Source of the DNA: Rhodococcus sp. 1163
Lineage (GTDB): Bacteria; Actinomycetota; Actinomycetes; Mycobacteriales; Mycobacteriaceae
Length of the DNA: 64,000 nucleotides
Assembly (NCBI RefSeq): GCF_002091985.1
Contig: NZ_MKKX01000032.1
Location: forward strand, 1-64,000
Reading direction: 5' to 3'
Each line of letters starts with the position of its first letter. Position 1 is the stretch's first letter. This document shows positions 20,111 through 28,643 of the stretch, piece after piece. Both the position numbers and the translations under genes were made by a program. Below the pieces are notes generated by a model. The model saw only the letters and a program-made list of their open reading frames with translations, searched no databases and was not told the origin of the DNA.

Positions 20111-21661
20111 CTAGAGCTCGATCCATCGTGTCGGCGCAAGGCCACGTAGAAACGGCAGATCATGGCTGGCCACGACGAGTGCGCCCTCGTAGGTCGCCAG
20201 CGCCTCGGTGAGGTGCGCTCGGCCGGCGATATCGAGGTTGTTGGTCGGCTCGTCGAGCATGAGCAATTTCGGCGGCGGTTCGGCCAGCAGGATTCGTGCC
20301 AGCGCGGCACGTAGTCGCTCGCCGCCGGACAGGGTGGAGGTGACGGCATCCGAGTCGTGACCACGAAAGAGGAACCGGGCCAGTTGAGCGCGGATCTGTT
20401 CGTTCGACGCGTGTGGCGCGACGTCGGCGACGTTCTCGAACACTGTTCTCGATTCGTCGAAAACGTCGAGCCGTTGCGGCAGGCACTGCCACGGCACCGA
20501 GGGGCCTGCGGATTCGAGCTTTCGTAGCAGTGTCGTCTTGCCGCTGCCGTTGGGCCCGATCACCGCGATCCGATCGGGACCGACGATCTCGAGATCCTCG
20601 ATGACGACTACCTGTTGCCCCGCATGAACGTTCGTCAATGGTAGATCGATTCTTATCTCGCGGTCATCACGCAGGCGGTCCTCGGTCGCGTCGAGCATGG
20701 CCTGTGCGTCGGAAACCTTGTCCTCGTGGGCTCCGCGCAGTTTTCCGGCGGAGACCTGCGCCGCGCGCTTGCGAGCACCCATGATGATCTTCGGTTCGCG
20801 TTTCTGCTCGAACATCTTCTTGCCGTAACGAACCCGCCTGTCGATCTTCGTCCTGGTCTCGATCAATTCGCGTTTCTGTTTGCGCACATCGTTCTTGGCA
20901 TCGCTGAATGCCGCTGCCGCTGACTGCTGTTCGGCGTCGATCACCGACCGATAATGCGAGTAGTTGCCGCCGAACATCCGGATCGAGCGCACGCCGTTGC
21001 GCTCGGCGCGCACTTCGGCGGTGCTGTCCATGATGTCGAGAAGTTCGAGATCGTGGCTCGACACCACGAGGACCCCCGGAAACTCCAATACGGCAGAGTG
21101 CAACCGAGCACATGCGTCGATGTCGAGGTTGTTGGTCGGCTCGTCCAGCAGGAGCACCTCGGGTTCGGCGAGAAGTTCGGCAGTCAGTGCCAGCAGCATC
21201 GATTCCCCACCGGACAACGTACCGAGAGTGCGGTCGAGATCGGCTCGCGCGGAGACGATGCGGCCGAGTCCGAGCTTGTCGAGCACGGCCACGGCGCGGT
21301 CCTCGGCATCCCATCTGGACCCCACTGTCGAAAAGTCGGCTTCGGTTCCATCTCCGGACTCGATGCGCTGCAGTGCTTCTCGAAGTTCGCGAAGGCCGAG
21401 GATCTCGTCTACTCGCCGGCCTGGTATCGATGTCACGTCCTGCGGTAGGTAGCCGAGTTCTCCTTCGGTGCTGATCGACCCGCGCTGAGCCTGCAGCTCA
21501 CCGGCGACGAGTCGGAGGAGGGTGGATTTTCCCGATCCGTTCGATCCGACGAGACCTGTTCTACCAGAGGGGAATACGACATCGAGGCCGTCGTAGACCT
21601 GCTCGCCGTCCGGCCAGGTGAACTCGAGATCGGAAATGCGTAGGGCGGATGAAGTAGGCAT
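20111..21661 (-). CDS. ABC-F family ATPase (ribosome-associated type)
   Basis: 516 aa with two ABC domains and no membrane segment. First Walker A GSNGSGKS and signature LSGGE; second GPNGSGKT and LSGGE; both domains have the LLLDEPTNNLDI/LMLDEPTNNLDI motif. The lysine/arginine-rich linker (about residues 250-330, e.g. VRKQKRELIETRTKIDRRV) is typical. ABC-F proteins act on the ribosome as translation factors or antibiotic-protection proteins. GGAG lies 5 nt before the ATG. A 130-nt leader with inverted repeats precedes it, so attenuation control is possible. Subfamily not determined. Confidence 0.88.
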   Translation of the reverse strand: MPTSSALRISDLEFTWPDGEQVYDGLDVVFPSGRTGLVGSNGSGKSTLLRLVAGELQAQRGSISTEGELGYLPQDVTSIPGRRVDEILGLRELREALQRIESGDGTEADFSTVGSRWDAEDRAVAVLDKLGLGRIVSARADLDRTLGTLSGGESMLLALTAELLAEPEVLLLDEPTNNLDIDACARLHSAVLEFPGVLVVSSHDLELLDIMDSTAEVRAERNGVRSIRMFGGNYSHYRSVIDAEQQSAAAAFSDAKNDVRKQKRELIETRTKIDRRVRYGKKMFEQKREPKIIMGARKRAAQVSAGKLRGAHEDKVSDAQAMLDATEDRLRDDREIRIDLPLTNVHAGQQVVVIEDLEIVGPDRIAVIGPNGSGKTTLLRKLESAGPSVPWQCLPQRLDVFDESRTVFENVADVAPHASNEQIRAQLARFLFRGHDSDAVTSTLSGGERLRAALARILLAEPPPKLLMLDEPTNNLDIAGRAHLTEALATYEGALVVASHDLPFLRGLAPTRWIEL

Positions 21662-22421: not shown

Positions 22422-24233
22422 GTGCTCACTTCGAAGAGAACGGTGTCCGCCCTCGTTGCCGTCACCGCGCTGGTACTTGCCGGTTGCTCGGACGACGGTC
22501 CGCCGGAACCGAACACCACAGCCCAGCAGTTCGTCGACGCGGTCAACGGTGGAAATGCCGAGGCAGCCGCCGCGCTGACTACGGACCCGGCCGCCGCGGC
22601 CGCAGCACTGACGGGCCTGTACGACGGTCTGAGCGCCGGGGGGACGGTGACGGCGACACCCGATTTCACCGTCGGGGACACCTCCGAGGAGGGCGGGACG
22701 GTCACTCTGGATGCCACGTGGCGTTTCTCGACGACGCAGGACGGTACCGAGGAGCCGGACGGTGAACCGAAGCAGTGGCAATATGCGACAACTGCAACGG
22801 CCACCGAGACCGATCAGGGTTGGCGGATCGACTGGGACCCCGCCGTCTTGGCCCCGACCCTCGCGGCCGAGCGCACCATCCGGTTCACGCCGACCGATGC
22901 GCTCGTGAGCGCCAAGGTGTTCGATCGTGCCGGACGCGAATTGATGTCGCAGCAGGTAGTGACGCTCGTGAACGTCGACGCCACCGCCGATCCTGCGGCC
23001 GTCGCAGCGCTCGTGACACCGATCGTTCCGACGATCACTGCGCAGTCGATCACAGCCGACGTCGCGGGTGCGCAGGGTAAGACGGTGACTCTCGTGTCGT
23101 TGCGAGCGTCCGACGTCGATCCCATTGCCGCCCAACTCGCCGCAATGCCCGGTGTGACGCTTGCGCCGCAGGCCCGGCTCCTCACCACCGATAGCGCGCT
23201 CGCGTCACCAGCGCTGAACGGGGTATCGGAGCTGTGGCAGCAACAACTCGACGCCAACAAGGGCTGGTCCGTTCAGTCGGTCAAGGTCGACGGATCCGTG
23301 GAACCGCTGGCGGGAATCGACGCGCAGCCAGCACCGGACATCGCGACCACGCTGGACTCCGCCCTTCAGATCAAAGCCGAGAACGCTCTTGCGTCGTTGC
23401 CGCAGCAGGCGGCGATCGTCGCGTTGCAGCCCTCGACCGGCAACGTCCTCGCTGTCGCGCAGAACGCTGCGGCGGACGCCGAAGGCCCGATCGCGCTTAC
23501 GGGTCTGTATCCGCCCGGTTCGACATTCAAGACAGTGACGACGTCGGCGGCGCTGGAAGCCGGGACAGCGACCCCCGACACGATCCTGCCGTGCCCAGGG
23601 ACCGAGAACATCGAGGGCCGCCAGATTCCGAACGACGACAACTTCGATCTCGGTGACGTCCCGCTGCACACGGCATTCGCCCGATCGTGCAATACGACGA
23701 TGGGCCGCCTCGGCGTCGGACTCCCCGCCGACGGATTGCAGCAGACGGCACAGCAGTACGGCCTCGGTGTCGACTATGTGACGCCGGGGCTGACCTCGGT
23801 CACCGGCAACGTTCCTCTCGCAGCTACGCCGGCGCAACGCGTCGAATCCGCCATCGGTCAGGGGCAGGTGACGGCGTCACCGTTCGGGATGGCTTTGGTC
23901 GCGTCGTCGATCGCGAGTGGTGCGTTGAAGGCTCCGACGCTTCTCGACGGACAGCCCGGTGTAGCGAATGCGACGCCGAAACCCGTGGATCCGCAGGTAG
24001 CCGAACAGGTGAAGGCGATGATGCGCGAGACCGTCACCAATGGCACGGCCACGCAGTTGCAGGACATCCCCGGCCTACTGGGTAAAACCGGAACTGCCGA
24101 GTTCGGGCCGAACAACGAGATCGCGCACGGTTGGTTCGTCGGGATCGCGGGTGATCTTGCTTTTGCGGTCTTCGTAGCGGGTGGTCAAAGTTCGGGTCCC
24201 GCGCTCGAAGCAGCGGGTAAGCTCCTCCGATAG
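22422..24233 (+). CDS. Penicillin-binding lipoprotein, transpeptidase with MecA_N-like domain
   Basis: 603 aa if started at GTG 22422 (an upstream TTG 22404 is in frame). Lipobox LVLAGC with Cys22 places it outside the membrane. Then an NTF2-like/MecA_N domain (~residues 30-150), a dimerisation region, and a class B transpeptidase domain with intact SxxK (S367-TF-K370), SxN (S422-C-N424) and KTG (K555-T-G557). It cross-links peptidoglycan and would be a beta-lactam target. From memory it corresponds to the M. tuberculosis lipoprotein Rv2864c in length and architecture. A catalytically degenerate paralogue follows 117 bp downstream on the same strand. Confidence 0.88.
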   Translation: MLTSKRTVSALVAVTALVLAGCSDDGPPEPNTTAQQFVDAVNGGNAEAAAALTTDPAAAAAALTGLYDGLSAGGTVTATPDFTVGDTSEEGGTVTLDATWRFSTTQDGTEEPDGEPKQWQYATTATATETDQGWRIDWDPAVLAPTLAAERTIRFTPTDALVSAKVFDRAGRELMSQQVVTLVNVDATADPAAVAALVTPIVPTITAQSITADVAGAQGKTVTLVSLRASDVDPIAAQLAAMPGVTLAPQARLLTTDSALASPALNGVSELWQQQLDANKGWSVQSVKVDGSVEPLAGIDAQPAPDIATTLDSALQIKAENALASLPQQAAIVALQPSTGNVLAVAQNAAADAEGPIALTGLYPPGSTFKTVTTSAALEAGTATPDTILPCPGTENIEGRQIPNDDNFDLGDVPLHTAFARSCNTTMGRLGVGLPADGLQQTAQQYGLGVDYVTPGLTSVTGNVPLAATPAQRVESAIGQGQVTASPFGMALVASSIASGALKAPTLLDGQPGVANATPKPVDPQVAEQVKAMMRETVTNGTATQLQDIPGLLGKTGTAEFGPNNEIAHGWFVGIAGDLAFAVFVAGGQSSGPALEAAGKLLR

Positions 24234-24350
24234 GGCCCAGCAGGCAAATACCTGGTGTGGCCCAATCGTGACCGGAGTGTATGTCTGTCGTGCTTGTTAC
24301 CCTTGTGGCTACAGTGAATATTGTGACCCATGAGTTCTGGAAGGTCACTG

Positions 24351-25976
24351 ATGCCTCGTCGTATTCGTGTCCGATATGTGGTGGCGCTCGGCGCAATTTT
24401 GGTATTGGCCGCATCACTTGCTACGTGGACCCTCGATCGCCCCACCGGCGGGGCCGAATCCACGGTGTCCGATTTCGTCGAGGCACTCAACGACCGCGAC
24501 GTCGATGCAGCCGCCAACCTGACTTCGTACCCCAACGCGGCGGCGGCATCGATCTCGCAGATGTTCGACGGCCTGTCCGCGGGCGGAAAATCATCCTCGC
24601 AGTTCGAACTCTCGCAGTTCATCGACCTCGACCAGGACTCGGGGTTCTTCACCCTCGGTTCGGCGTGGAACTTCGGTGAGGGCAAGGACTGGAAGTACTC
24701 GACGCGCGGCAGCACGAAGAGATTGAGCGTCGGCTGGCGGATCACCTGGGAACCGGAGATCCTTGCACCGGGCCTGGCCAGTGCAGTGCACTACACCCGA
24801 ACGGACGCGCCGCCACCGCTGGTGTTCGACGCTGCCAAGAACGTCCTGATGAGCGAACGCACCATCAACGCCGTCTCCCTCGACCCAGCGCAGATGCCCG
24901 ACCCGGCAGCGTCCGCGTCGCGACTCGCCGACGTCATCGACGTCGTGGCGCCGTTGATCACTGCAGAATCGCTGACCTCCGAGCTGAATGCCGCACCTGG
25001 TTCACCAGTCCTCGCGGTCAACCTGCGCGACGACGACTTCGCGGTTCTCGAGGACGATCTGCGTGCCATTCCTGGAGTCGTGATCTCGCAGACACCCAAA
25101 CTGATCGCGGGCGATCGACGCATCACCTCCCCGTTGCTCGACTCCATTCGCGACGCCTGGCAACTTGGCCGCGACGCGACGTCCGGTTGGGCAGTGGACG
25201 TCGCCGGTGCCGACGGAATTCCGGTGCGTCAGGTCGGCTTCCAGGGTCCTGCCGGTCCGGACCTGCATGCCACGCTCGATCCCCGGATTCAGCTGGCCGC
25301 CGAGGATGCCGTGGTCAGCGTCGGGACGTCCGCGTCGATCGTGGCTATCGTGCCGTCGACCGGTGCCATCGTCGCGGCTGCTCAGAACAGTTACGCCAAC
25401 GAGCAGGGGGAGATTGCGTTCTCGGGGATGTATCCGACGGGATCGGCAACGGCATTGCTCGACGCCCTGCAGTCCGGTGATAACCCAGGCACGCCGTCTG
25501 AGCTCGGCCTCGGGGTCAACTACTCGATGCCCGGACTCGACGCCTTCGCCGGTCAGCGTTCCGGACCGGGTGGGTCGATCGATCGGATCCGGTCCGTCGG
25601 AAACGAGAGCTCCACGGAGTCGATGACGCCGTTCGGCCTGGCTCAGATGGGTGCGGCGATCTCCCGTGGAGCTGCGCCCCTACCGTCGATCGTCGTCGGT
25701 CAGACCGCCGTCGCCGACCAGCCGACCGATTCGATTCCGCCCGAAGCTCTTGCCAAGCTCCGAAAGATGTTGGTGGACTCTGCTCATGCCGAAGGGCTCG
25801 ACGCGTACGCGGGATTGACAGGGTTCGCGGGTAACAGTGGCGACGACCGGTGGTTCATCGCCAACCGAGGCGACCTTGCGTTTGCCGTCTACATCGAAGA
25901 CGCGGACGGAACGGACCAGGCCGTGAAGATGAGTACCCGTCTGATCCGAGGCATGGACTCCGGCATCGCCGAGTAA
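24351..25976 (+). CDS. PBP-like pseudoenzyme, tandem paralogue lacking catalytic motifs
   Basis: 541 aa. N-terminal membrane anchor (VALGAILVLAASLATWTL), no lipobox Cys. The MecA_N-like and dimerisation regions align with the preceding PBP (FVEALNDRDVDAAANLTSYP; VGWRITWEPEILAPGLAS). In the transpeptidase part SxxK has become S365-ATA (Lys to Ala), about 50 residues containing SxN are absent, and the KTGT segment reads GLTGFAGNSG. The reading frame is otherwise clean and the end (RGDLAFAVYIEDADG) is well conserved, so it is a maintained pseudoenzyme rather than a pseudogene. GGAAGG lies 6 nt before ATG 24351. A regulatory or scaffolding role with the active PBP is inferred. Confidence 0.82.
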   Translation: MPRRIRVRYVVALGAILVLAASLATWTLDRPTGGAESTVSDFVEALNDRDVDAAANLTSYPNAAAASISQMFDGLSAGGKSSSQFELSQFIDLDQDSGFFTLGSAWNFGEGKDWKYSTRGSTKRLSVGWRITWEPEILAPGLASAVHYTRTDAPPPLVFDAAKNVLMSERTINAVSLDPAQMPDPAASASRLADVIDVVAPLITAESLTSELNAAPGSPVLAVNLRDDDFAVLEDDLRAIPGVVISQTPKLIAGDRRITSPLLDSIRDAWQLGRDATSGWAVDVAGADGIPVRQVGFQGPAGPDLHATLDPRIQLAAEDAVVSVGTSASIVAIVPSTGAIVAAAQNSYANEQGEIAFSGMYPTGSATALLDALQSGDNPGTPSELGLGVNYSMPGLDAFAGQRSGPGGSIDRIRSVGNESSTESMTPFGLAQMGAAISRGAAPLPSIVVGQTAVADQPTDSIPPEALAKLRKMLVDSAHAEGLDAYAGLTGFAGNSGDDRWFIANRGDLAFAVYIEDADGTDQAVKMSTRLIRGMDSGIAE

Positions 25977-25982
25977 CCCCCT

Positions 25983-26714
25983 GTGCTCCATTTCGGTCTG
26001 CTCGTGGTGGCCGGTTACTTCGCCGGCCTCGTCGGCTTCGTGACCGGAATGGCGTCGCTGGTGTCGTATCCAGCCTTACTGGCAGCAGGGTTGCCTCCGG
26101 TGAGCGCAAACGTCACCAACACGGTGGCGATGGTCGCCGTCGGTGTCGGCGCTACGACGAATGCTTCGGCCGAGCTCGCCAAAGACGGTAAGCAGCTGGT
26201 TCGGTATGCCGTCTATTCGGCAGCCGGTGGGCTGGTCGGCGCCGTCGTTCTGCTCGTTGCGCCCGCGGGATCCTTCGAGGTGGTGGTGCCGTTCCTCGTT
26301 GCGTTCGCGGCCCTCGCGCTGCTACTGCAACCGAGGATTCGAAAGCTGTCCGGAAATCGAGAGTTTCCGACGCTGTATCCGTTCGCACTGTTCTTGGTTG
26401 CTGTCTACGGCGGGTACTTCGGGGCAGGTGCCGGGGTGATCTTCTTGGCGCTCGCCCTGATCGCCACATCCGAAACGATATGGCGCGCCAGCATTCTGAA
26501 GAGTTTCTTTCTGGGCGTCGCGAACCTCGTTGCGGCCGTGATCTTTGCGTTCTCCGGTCAAGTCGACTGGCTCGCTGCGCTGGCGCTGGCGATAGGGGCC
26601 TTCTGCGGTGGTTACTGCGGCCCGCCCGTGGTCAAGCTCATTCCCCCGACGTTCCTGCGCATCGCTGTCGGAATTCTCGGGCTCGGGCTCGCAGCATGGT
26701 TGATGTGGAAATAG
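25983..26714 (+). CDS. TSUP (TauE/SafE) family membrane transporter
   Basis: 243 aa, about seven to eight membrane segments, with the family repeat features (YFAGLVGFVTGMASLVSYPA near the start, GYFGAGAGVIFLAL in the second half). Members export sulfite, sulfonates or related anions. It starts with GTG 6 bp after the pseudo-PBP stop, without a strong ribosome site, so it may be coupled to that gene. Converges with the POT transporter. Confidence 0.8.
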   Translation: MLHFGLLVVAGYFAGLVGFVTGMASLVSYPALLAAGLPPVSANVTNTVAMVAVGVGATTNASAELAKDGKQLVRYAVYSAAGGLVGAVVLLVAPAGSFEVVVPFLVAFAALALLLQPRIRKLSGNREFPTLYPFALFLVAVYGGYFGAGAGVIFLALALIATSETIWRASILKSFFLGVANLVAAVIFAFSGQVDWLAALALAIGAFCGGYCGPPVVKLIPPTFLRIAVGILGLGLAAWLMWK

Positions 26715-26726
26715 CTGCAGGCGTTG

Positions 26727-28175
<1,449 letters not shown>

Positions 28176-28220: not shown

Positions 28221-28643
28221 TCAGTTTTTCCGGGCGGATACAACTCTTGCGAGGGCGCGCCAGCCTAGAAGGAACAGCGCCAGCACGGTCGTGGCGACGA
28301 CGACGAAGCTGAAGGCAGTGCCCTGCCCGCTGATCGCCCGAAGCACCATGCCGATGGCGACGGTGGACACCCACACGATGATGCCGGTCGGGAGAAGAAG
28401 GAACGCGTCGAACTTGTCACGGTAGAGCGCCCAGCTGGCGGCCCAGCCGACGACGGCGCCGATCAGGAACGGCCAGGCGGTCGTCGCCAATCCGGCAAGT
28501 GCACCCGTCTCGTCGTGGCTGCGTCGACCGATGGCGCAGAAGATCAGGACCAACACGAGATCTATGACTGCGGGAATGTACAGCGGCGCGAAACGGCCCG
28601 GTACGGCGGCGATGATCGGGTTGCGCTTGCTCACCGGTCCCAC
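28221..28643 (-). CDS. DUF3054-family membrane protein
   Basis: 140 aa with four hydrophobic helices; the family-typical IFCAIGRRSHDE lies after the first helix and AWPFLIGAVVGW in the second. Function unknown. Starts with GTG (28643 or 28634, three codons apart). Flanked upstream by the strong 17-bp hairpin that ends the YceI gene, so it probably has its own promoter or reads through that hairpin. Confidence 0.75.
   Translation of the reverse strand: MGPVSKRNPIIAAVPGRFAPLYIPAVIDLVLVLIFCAIGRRSHDETGALAGLATTAWPFLIGAVVGWAASWALYRDKFDAFLLLPTGIIVWVSTVAIGMVLRAISGQGTAFSFVVVATTVLALFLLGWRALARVVSARKN

Follow-up and report, generated by a model that had tools for sequence, protein, structure and literature searches.

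The window examined here, a stretch of 64,000 nucleotides from Rhodococcus sp. 1163 (contig NZ_MKKX01000032.1, positions 1 to 64,000), contains two consecutive genes on the + strand that encode related proteins, which we refer to as P1 and P2. The first is an active-looking class B penicillin-binding protein (PBP) of the MecA_N type. We consider it fairly probable that the second is a non-catalytic, membrane-anchored class B pseudo-PBP, which acts through its N-terminal lobes in cell wall synthesis and has an active PBP as its presumed client. Sequence comparisons show that P2 descends from a PBP, has lost all three catalytic motifs, is retained across the family and is under purifying selection, that its constraint has shifted, and that motifs have decayed repeatedly at the same locus.

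The two proteins were 31% identical over 610 columns in a BLASTP alignment (E 2e-74), and a profile-profile comparison of the two families with hhalign gave a probability of 100 (E 1.8e-121) over 514 collinear columns. The original prediction, made from the sequence of the window, had described an alignment along the MecA_N-like, dimerization and C-terminal parts; its coordinates were right and the homology was confirmed by both comparisons. In Pfam searches, P1 scored 136 bits for the Transpeptidase domain and 35 bits for MecA_N. The P2 protein of the window scored 24.0 bits for MecA_N (PF05223), against a cut-off of 22, and fell below the cut-offs for Transpeptidase (13.3 bits) and PBP_dimer (13.5 bits). 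Among 48 P2 proteins, PF05223 was matched in 44 (E 0.01) and PF00905 alone in only 17. With its MecA_N domain and the collinear homology of its dimer and transpeptidase parts, P2 is assigned by descent to the MecA_N-type PBP lineage. The predicted changes at the active site were also found as described: SATA occupies the position of the SxxK motif, the block of about 50 residues that contains the SxN motif in P1 is deleted, and KTGT is replaced, with FAGN at the aligned site, in a frame that is intact over 541 codons. Judged by its motifs, P2 is devoid of every feature of an active class B PBP for which we tested, namely SxxK, SxN and KTG(T/E).

The same picture was obtained for the genus, for which the loci were compared in 37 genomes, including that of the window, which named relatives assign to Rhodococcus/Rhodococcoides. 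P1 and P2 were adjacent and on the same strand in all 37, so the pairing is not due to chance. All three motifs were intact in every P1, and every P2 was without SxxK, the SxN segment and KTG, at pairwise identities among the P2 proteins of 50% to 100%. The ratio of nonsynonymous to synonymous substitution rates (dN/dS), estimated by the method of Nei and Gojobori (NG86), was 0.048 to 0.123 for P2 in 10 pairs from the closest five genomes and 0.052 to 0.112 in 10 further chosen pairs. The values for P1 were 0.051 to 0.134, except for four pairs with genome G032, in which the P1 N-terminus looks disturbed (0.257 to 0.379). It was also noted that the P1 protein of the closely related Rhodococcus sp. 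H36-A4 (L047/L075) aligns with that of the window only from residue 72; its N-terminus looks frame-disturbed, which raises its dN/dS. The original prediction had called P2 a maintained pseudoenzyme and had proposed a search across Rhodococcus and its relatives and an estimate of dN/dS as checks. The pair was recovered in every genus genome with P2 neither frameshifted nor absent in close relatives, and the dN/dS of about 0.05 to 0.12 is not near 1; together with the intact frames and the presence of P2 in 22 of the 31 family genera described below, these results bear out the claim.

To locate the constraint within the proteins, we compared 15 loci at which P1 and P2 lie side by side, six from the genus and nine from elsewhere. 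The mean pairwise identity of the MecA_N part was 0.538 for P2 vs 0.445 for P1 (bootstrap 95% interval of the difference, 0.040 to 0.150), and that of the dimer part was 0.567 vs 0.507 (0.010 to 0.116), whereas the transpeptidase part showed the reverse, 0.464 vs 0.683 (-0.265 to -0.170). The order was unchanged when the genus was reduced to a single row, which left 10 rows in all, including two from genus g23 (genera are given by our working labels; matches to PF00934, in 18 of 22 genomes, did not decisively separate Mycobacterium from other genera). For 12 chosen close pairs, dN/dS calculated as a ratio of means was 0.065, 0.069 and 0.081 in the MecA_N, dimer and transpeptidase parts of P2, and 0.108, 0.100 and 0.057 in those of P1. 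The identities and the dN/dS values therefore indicate that P2 is constrained more strongly in its N-terminal lobes and P1 in its catalytic domain. The transpeptidase part of P2 is still under purifying selection. In this part, 21 positions were conserved at 90% or more among the 48 P2 proteins, occupied by P, D, Q, A, V, G, N and W; none was a Ser, Lys, Cys, Tyr or His.

A third MecA_N PBP, to which we refer as LIPO, is encoded on a different contig of the 4.46-Mb genome. Its gene is flanked by ispG-like and map-like genes, as is that of mycobacterial PBP-lipo, of which LIPO is presumably the ortholog. To study the distribution of the pair, 401 genomes from 31 genera of the family were searched with profiles of P2 (E 1e-150) and P1 (E 1e-185), with thresholds derived from the separation of scores with related, non-identical profiles; co-occurrence was cross-tabulated by hand, and the counts are those at these thresholds. 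The P2 profile matched 252 genomes in 22 genera and the P1 profile 259 genomes. Both were matched in 205 genomes, P2 only in 47, P1 only in 54 and neither in 95. The genomes with P2 only include an assembly that is 66% complete (G049) and one with a second, partial PBP match that is perhaps a broken P1 (G103). Seven of the genomes with P1 only belong to genera g20 and g24 and carry a longer form, which we refer to as PX. The other 47 comprise 42 genomes from three genera (20 from g4, 20 from g29 and 2 from g3), a clean loss (G140), an apparent frameshift (G367), a gene split over two contigs (G067) and two incomplete assemblies (G215 and G304). Outside the family, 298 genomes sampled across the order gave only P1-like or LIPO-like scores, the best being 404 bits, vs at least 598 bits for the P2 matches in the same search.

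In an alignment for the family with 34 P2 rows, of which 28 are further loci and six are genus loci that also enter the genus count, the SxxK, SxN and KTG motifs were missing from all 34 P2 rows and present in all 23 P1 and all four LIPO rows. Trees were inferred by quick searches with support from the approximate likelihood ratio test of the Shimodaira-Hasegawa type (SH-aLRT), without bootstraps. The 34 P2 rows formed one clade (SH-aLRT 99), which in the rooted tree branches from within the P1-type group, and PBP-lipo formed a clade of its own. The original prediction gave P2 a membrane anchor in place of a lipobox. A lipobox is indeed missing from the six genus rows examined, but its pattern is present in 22 of 28 P2 rows outside the genus, so that the loss appears to be local.

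A few additional copies were observed. Genome G241 (g23) contains, besides the P2 gene at locus L138 (contig C1), a second, nearly identical one (L139) on a contig of 775 kb (C2); the 12 kb read there contained neither P1 nor the usual neighbors, and the gene may have been copied recently to a second replicon. In genome G044 (g9), locus L166 encodes a further PBP of the P1 kind, complete in its motifs and located some 175 kb away from the P1-P2 pair, which forms a deep branch in the P1 group. P1 was matched in 13 genomes of g9, and 6 of these gave two matches.

The locus of P2 is marked by a gene for a DUF3054 membrane protein, which was found in 20 of the 28 P2 loci read outside the genus; in two of the other eight (L144 and L149) the contig ends close to P2. 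In another set, for which distances were worked out by hand from the coordinates, DUF3054 shared a contig with P2 at a distance of up to 15 kb in 34 of 36 P2 genomes, in 32 of them tail to tail with P2, at about 170 bp or less in all 14 g22 genomes and at 6 to 15 kb in g9. The linkage was seen in none of five genomes with P1 only. In the two exceptions, both from g21, DUF3054 had stayed with P1; apart from that genus, DUF3054 is the gene that mostly remains next to P2 when P1 and P2 are separated. Among 18 chosen neighbors searched against Pfam, from six loci where P2 (five loci) or PX (one) lies alone or apart from P1, DUF3054 was common to three genera and Pirin to two.

Each of the seven genomes in which PX was found (from one set of four loci and another of four genomes, with one in common) likewise has the PX gene beside DUF3054 in a tail-to-tail arrangement. 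PX retains the SxN segment. Its residues at the three motif positions are SVFQ/SCD/AAGT, AAFT/SCI/AVGT and AAFT/SCN/AVGT in g24, and SVFE/SCA/ATGA, PVFG/SCA/VTGS and PVFA/SCA/ATGA in g20, whose fourth representative, G112, has a fully intact set (SAFK/SCN/KTGT). Motifs have accordingly been lost in six of the seven genomes, and G112 encodes an active-looking protein. This protein groups with the other g20 PX proteins read, with SH-aLRT values of 97 for the whole protein and 92 for the N-terminal part. In the N-terminal part it is 56% to 57% identical to them and 30% to the P1 of its own genome, and in the transpeptidase part the values are 51% to 55% and 50%, with no sign in the latter identities of gene conversion from its own P1. 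An old conversion of the transpeptidase part from a P1 may nevertheless have occurred and would lower the count of losses, because the transpeptidase part of P1 is so conserved that the G112 protein is 47% to 52% identical there to the other P1 proteins compared. If catalysis is not regained, the motifs point to probably three or more separate losses: one in P2, one in g24 and one in the g20 genomes apart from G112.

P2 and PX formed one clade in the tree of the whole protein (SH-aLRT 95). The best tree of the N-terminal part alone placed PX outside P2 and P1, with a P2-PX clade not rejected by the approximately unbiased test (p-AU 0.41), and because of this separation the common lineage is argued from synteny. 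We lean slightly towards the view that a DUF3054-linked PBP lineage of the Rhodococcus-Nocardia family turned into a pseudoenzyme at least three times independently, with the protein kept each time, which would make it the first natural class B pseudo-PBP family to be described. If so, the N-terminal lobes of MecA_N PBPs would play an independent role in building the wall, one that can be separated from transpeptidation.

According to the explanation that we favor, P2 would have derived from a duplicate of a MecA_N-type PBP that lost transpeptidation long ago, and would since have been kept for the work of its anchored MecA_N and dimer/pedestal lobes. It may belong, as a subunit without catalysis, to a complex for peptidoglycan synthesis on the outer side of the membrane, and might there hold or tune an active MecA_N-type PBP by lobe-to-lobe contact. 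Where P1 is encoded next to P2 it would be the client, and in genomes that lack P1 this part would fall to PBP-lipo. PBP-lipo was present in 31 of the 32 genomes tested among the 47 with P2 only, and its motifs were intact at all 30 loci read, the 31st being on a broken contig. P2 is therefore not dependent on P1, yet an active MecA_N PBP is nearly always present. This co-presence permits but does not prove the proposed client, because a PBP-lipo that is widespread would give the same result by chance.

Several observations weigh against this explanation. No P2 was found in any genome of g4, g29 and g3 at E 1e-150. The gene can also be lost, as in G140, where P1 and the TauE/SafE permease gene are 31 nt apart, and in G367 (g8, L221) it is split into two overlapping open frames, by a frameshift or a sequencing error. 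DUF3054, the steadiest neighbor of P2, has to our knowledge no known role. The binding partner of P2 is itself inferred, and one of the genomes with P2 only, G158, gave no PBP-lipo match at E 1e-40, so that neither of the proposed clients is universal.

A tentative alternative is that P2 is a stand-alone sensor of peptidoglycan, whose N-terminal lobes bind wall fragments and which signals or buffers without an active PBP as client. It would account for the move of constraint to the N-terminal lobes and for the persistence of P2 in genomes that lack P1, one of which (G158) apparently lacks PBP-lipo as well. Among solved relatives, this region is matched by proteins of the enterococcal PBP5 type and, less strongly, by PBP2a, and the conserved lobes presumably border the allosteric site of PBP2a that binds nascent peptidoglycan. 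That PBP2a has an allosteric site, which a second molecule of peptidoglycan opens, is stated in PMC7617827. Nonetheless, we identified no conserved ligand site in P2, and Pfam searches found no signaling domain.

It is somewhat less likely still that the purpose of P2 is to regulate the PBP of the adjacent gene. The two genes are adjacent on one strand throughout the genus genomes and in representatives of eight further genera, and both occur in about half of the family sample (205 of 401, by the two profiles), but tandem duplication alone could explain the adjacency. The locus comparison covered the 15 genera with a representative that holds both genes; g8 and g18 also have genomes with both and lie outside the P1 comparison. 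P1 and P2 were side by side in the representatives of nine genera (g1, g2, g9, g15, g19, g23, g26, g27 and g28) and at different loci in those of six (g10, g13, g21, g22, g25 and g30), and in several genera P2 has stayed beside DUF3054 where P1 is elsewhere or gone. The original prediction of a partner dedicated to the neighboring P1 does not hold as a general rule, since P2 lacks P1 in 47 of 252 genomes, occupies a separate locus in 6 of 15 genera and was lost beside P1 in G140; an obligate partnership was rejected on these co-occurrence and locus data. P2 might still regulate, scaffold or sense on behalf of an active PBP of some kind.

It is very improbable that the old fold of P2 has acquired a new enzymatic activity, as its strong conservation might suggest, and alternative catalysis was rejected, since the absence of Ser, Lys, Cys, Tyr and His at the 90% level leaves the transpeptidase part of the 48 P2 proteins without a conserved nucleophile or base. 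That P2 is a decaying pseudogene, as its loss in G140 and the apparent frameshift in G367 could indicate, is scarcely credible and was rejected given the intact frames in all 37 genus genomes, the full-length matches in 252 family genomes and dN/dS far below 1.

The features of the window are listed in Table 1. P2 is followed by the genes for the TauE/SafE permease and the POT-family transporter and then by DUF3054, which is tail to tail with P2. The TauE/SafE gene starts so close to the P2 stop that co-transcription is probable in this lineage. A gene for a YceI protein adjoins DUF3054 in the window. PMC12169178 reports that a clone of R. jostii RHA1 was recovered in which a deletion of 3,522 bp affects a DUF3054 gene located alongside a YceI gene. 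If this is the same gene as that of the window, DUF3054 is not essential in RHA1.

Table 1. Coordinates of P1, P2 and the conserved neighboring genes in the window
Feature	Position	Strand	Remarks
Two-domain ABC ATPase gene, conserved neighbor	20111..21661	-	PF00005, two stretches; presumably ABC-F type
Gene for conserved neighbor of 180 aa	21793..22335	-	No Pfam match at 1e-5
P1, active-looking MecA_N-type class B PBP, 603 aa	22422..24233	+	GTG start, TAG stop; lipobox LAGC
P1 SxxK motif, STFK	23520..23531	+	Residues 367-370
P1 SxN motif, SCN	23685..23693	+	Residues 422-424
P1 KTGT motif	24084..24095	+	Residues 555-558
Likely P2 ribosome-binding site, GGAAGG	24339..24344	+	6 nt before ATG; predicted from sequence
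P2, pseudo-PBP, 541 aa	24351..25976	+	ATG start, TAA stop, frame open
P2 hydrophobic N-terminal anchor	24375..24437	+	Residues ~9-29; predicted; no lipobox in the genus
P2 MecA_N lobe	24453..24779	+	Residues 35-143; more conserved than in P1
P2 dimer/linker lobe	24780..25247	+	Residues 144-299; more conserved than in P1; boundary chosen by us
P2 transpeptidase remnant	25248..25955	+	Residues 300-535; less conserved than in P1; boundary chosen by us
P2 SxxK position, SATA	25443..25454	+	Residues 365-368
P2 KTGT position, FAGN	25824..25835	+	Residues 492-495
TauE/SafE permease gene	25983..26714	+	PF01925; starts 6 nt past P2 stop
POT-family transporter gene of conserved locus	26727..28175	-	PF00854; homolog near P1/P2 in several other genera
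DUF3054 membrane protein gene, P2-locus marker	28221..28643	-	PF11255, 99.7 bits; convergent to P2

A full-text literature search, mostly without subscription papers, found no description of a pseudo-PBP family like P2, which agrees with the statement in the original prediction that such a protein was not known to have been described. P2 can be viewed as a natural experiment in which evolution has removed catalysis and kept, even tightened, the N-terminal lobes, and the PX copies, of which one looks active and six have decayed, capture the transition from enzyme to pseudoenzyme part-way. The retention of P2 under strong selection across Rhodococcus and its relatives points to a job in the cell wall that needs no catalysis. 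A practical consequence is that some of the proteins counted as PBPs from the genes of these genera may lack the beta-lactam-binding residues.

Among known proteins, enterococcal PBP5 matches the P2 profile, with the best stretch at 26-197 (E 7e-18). PBP2a (MecA) and enterococcal PBP5 have the same domain order as P2, but both are active transpeptidases, whereas P2 is predicted to be without an active site. The closest active-looking relatives of P2 are the P1-type PBPs, in which the three motifs are present in 23 of 23 rows, compared with none in P2. PMC3987819 reports a "distal duplication of PBP-lipo" in environmental mycobacteria, MSMEG_6319 and others, to which the P1-type PBPs probably correspond. 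PBP-lipo itself (Rv2864c, MAB_3167c in mycobacteria), a lipoprotein, resembles the P1/P2 family in its MecA_N and transpeptidase domains, and differs from P2 in that SxxK, SCN and KTG are retained (4 of 4 alignment rows and 30 of 30 loci). It is essential in M. abscessus, where a copy with the S364A substitution failed to rescue growth (PMC9170245). PMC7617827 also describes that in S. aureus the PBP1 protein is needed for division even though the loss of its transpeptidase activity is tolerated. The catalytically dead PBP1 and PBP2 of S. aureus are a precedent for a structural role, but these are engineered point mutants, whereas P2 would be a natural gene family without catalysis.

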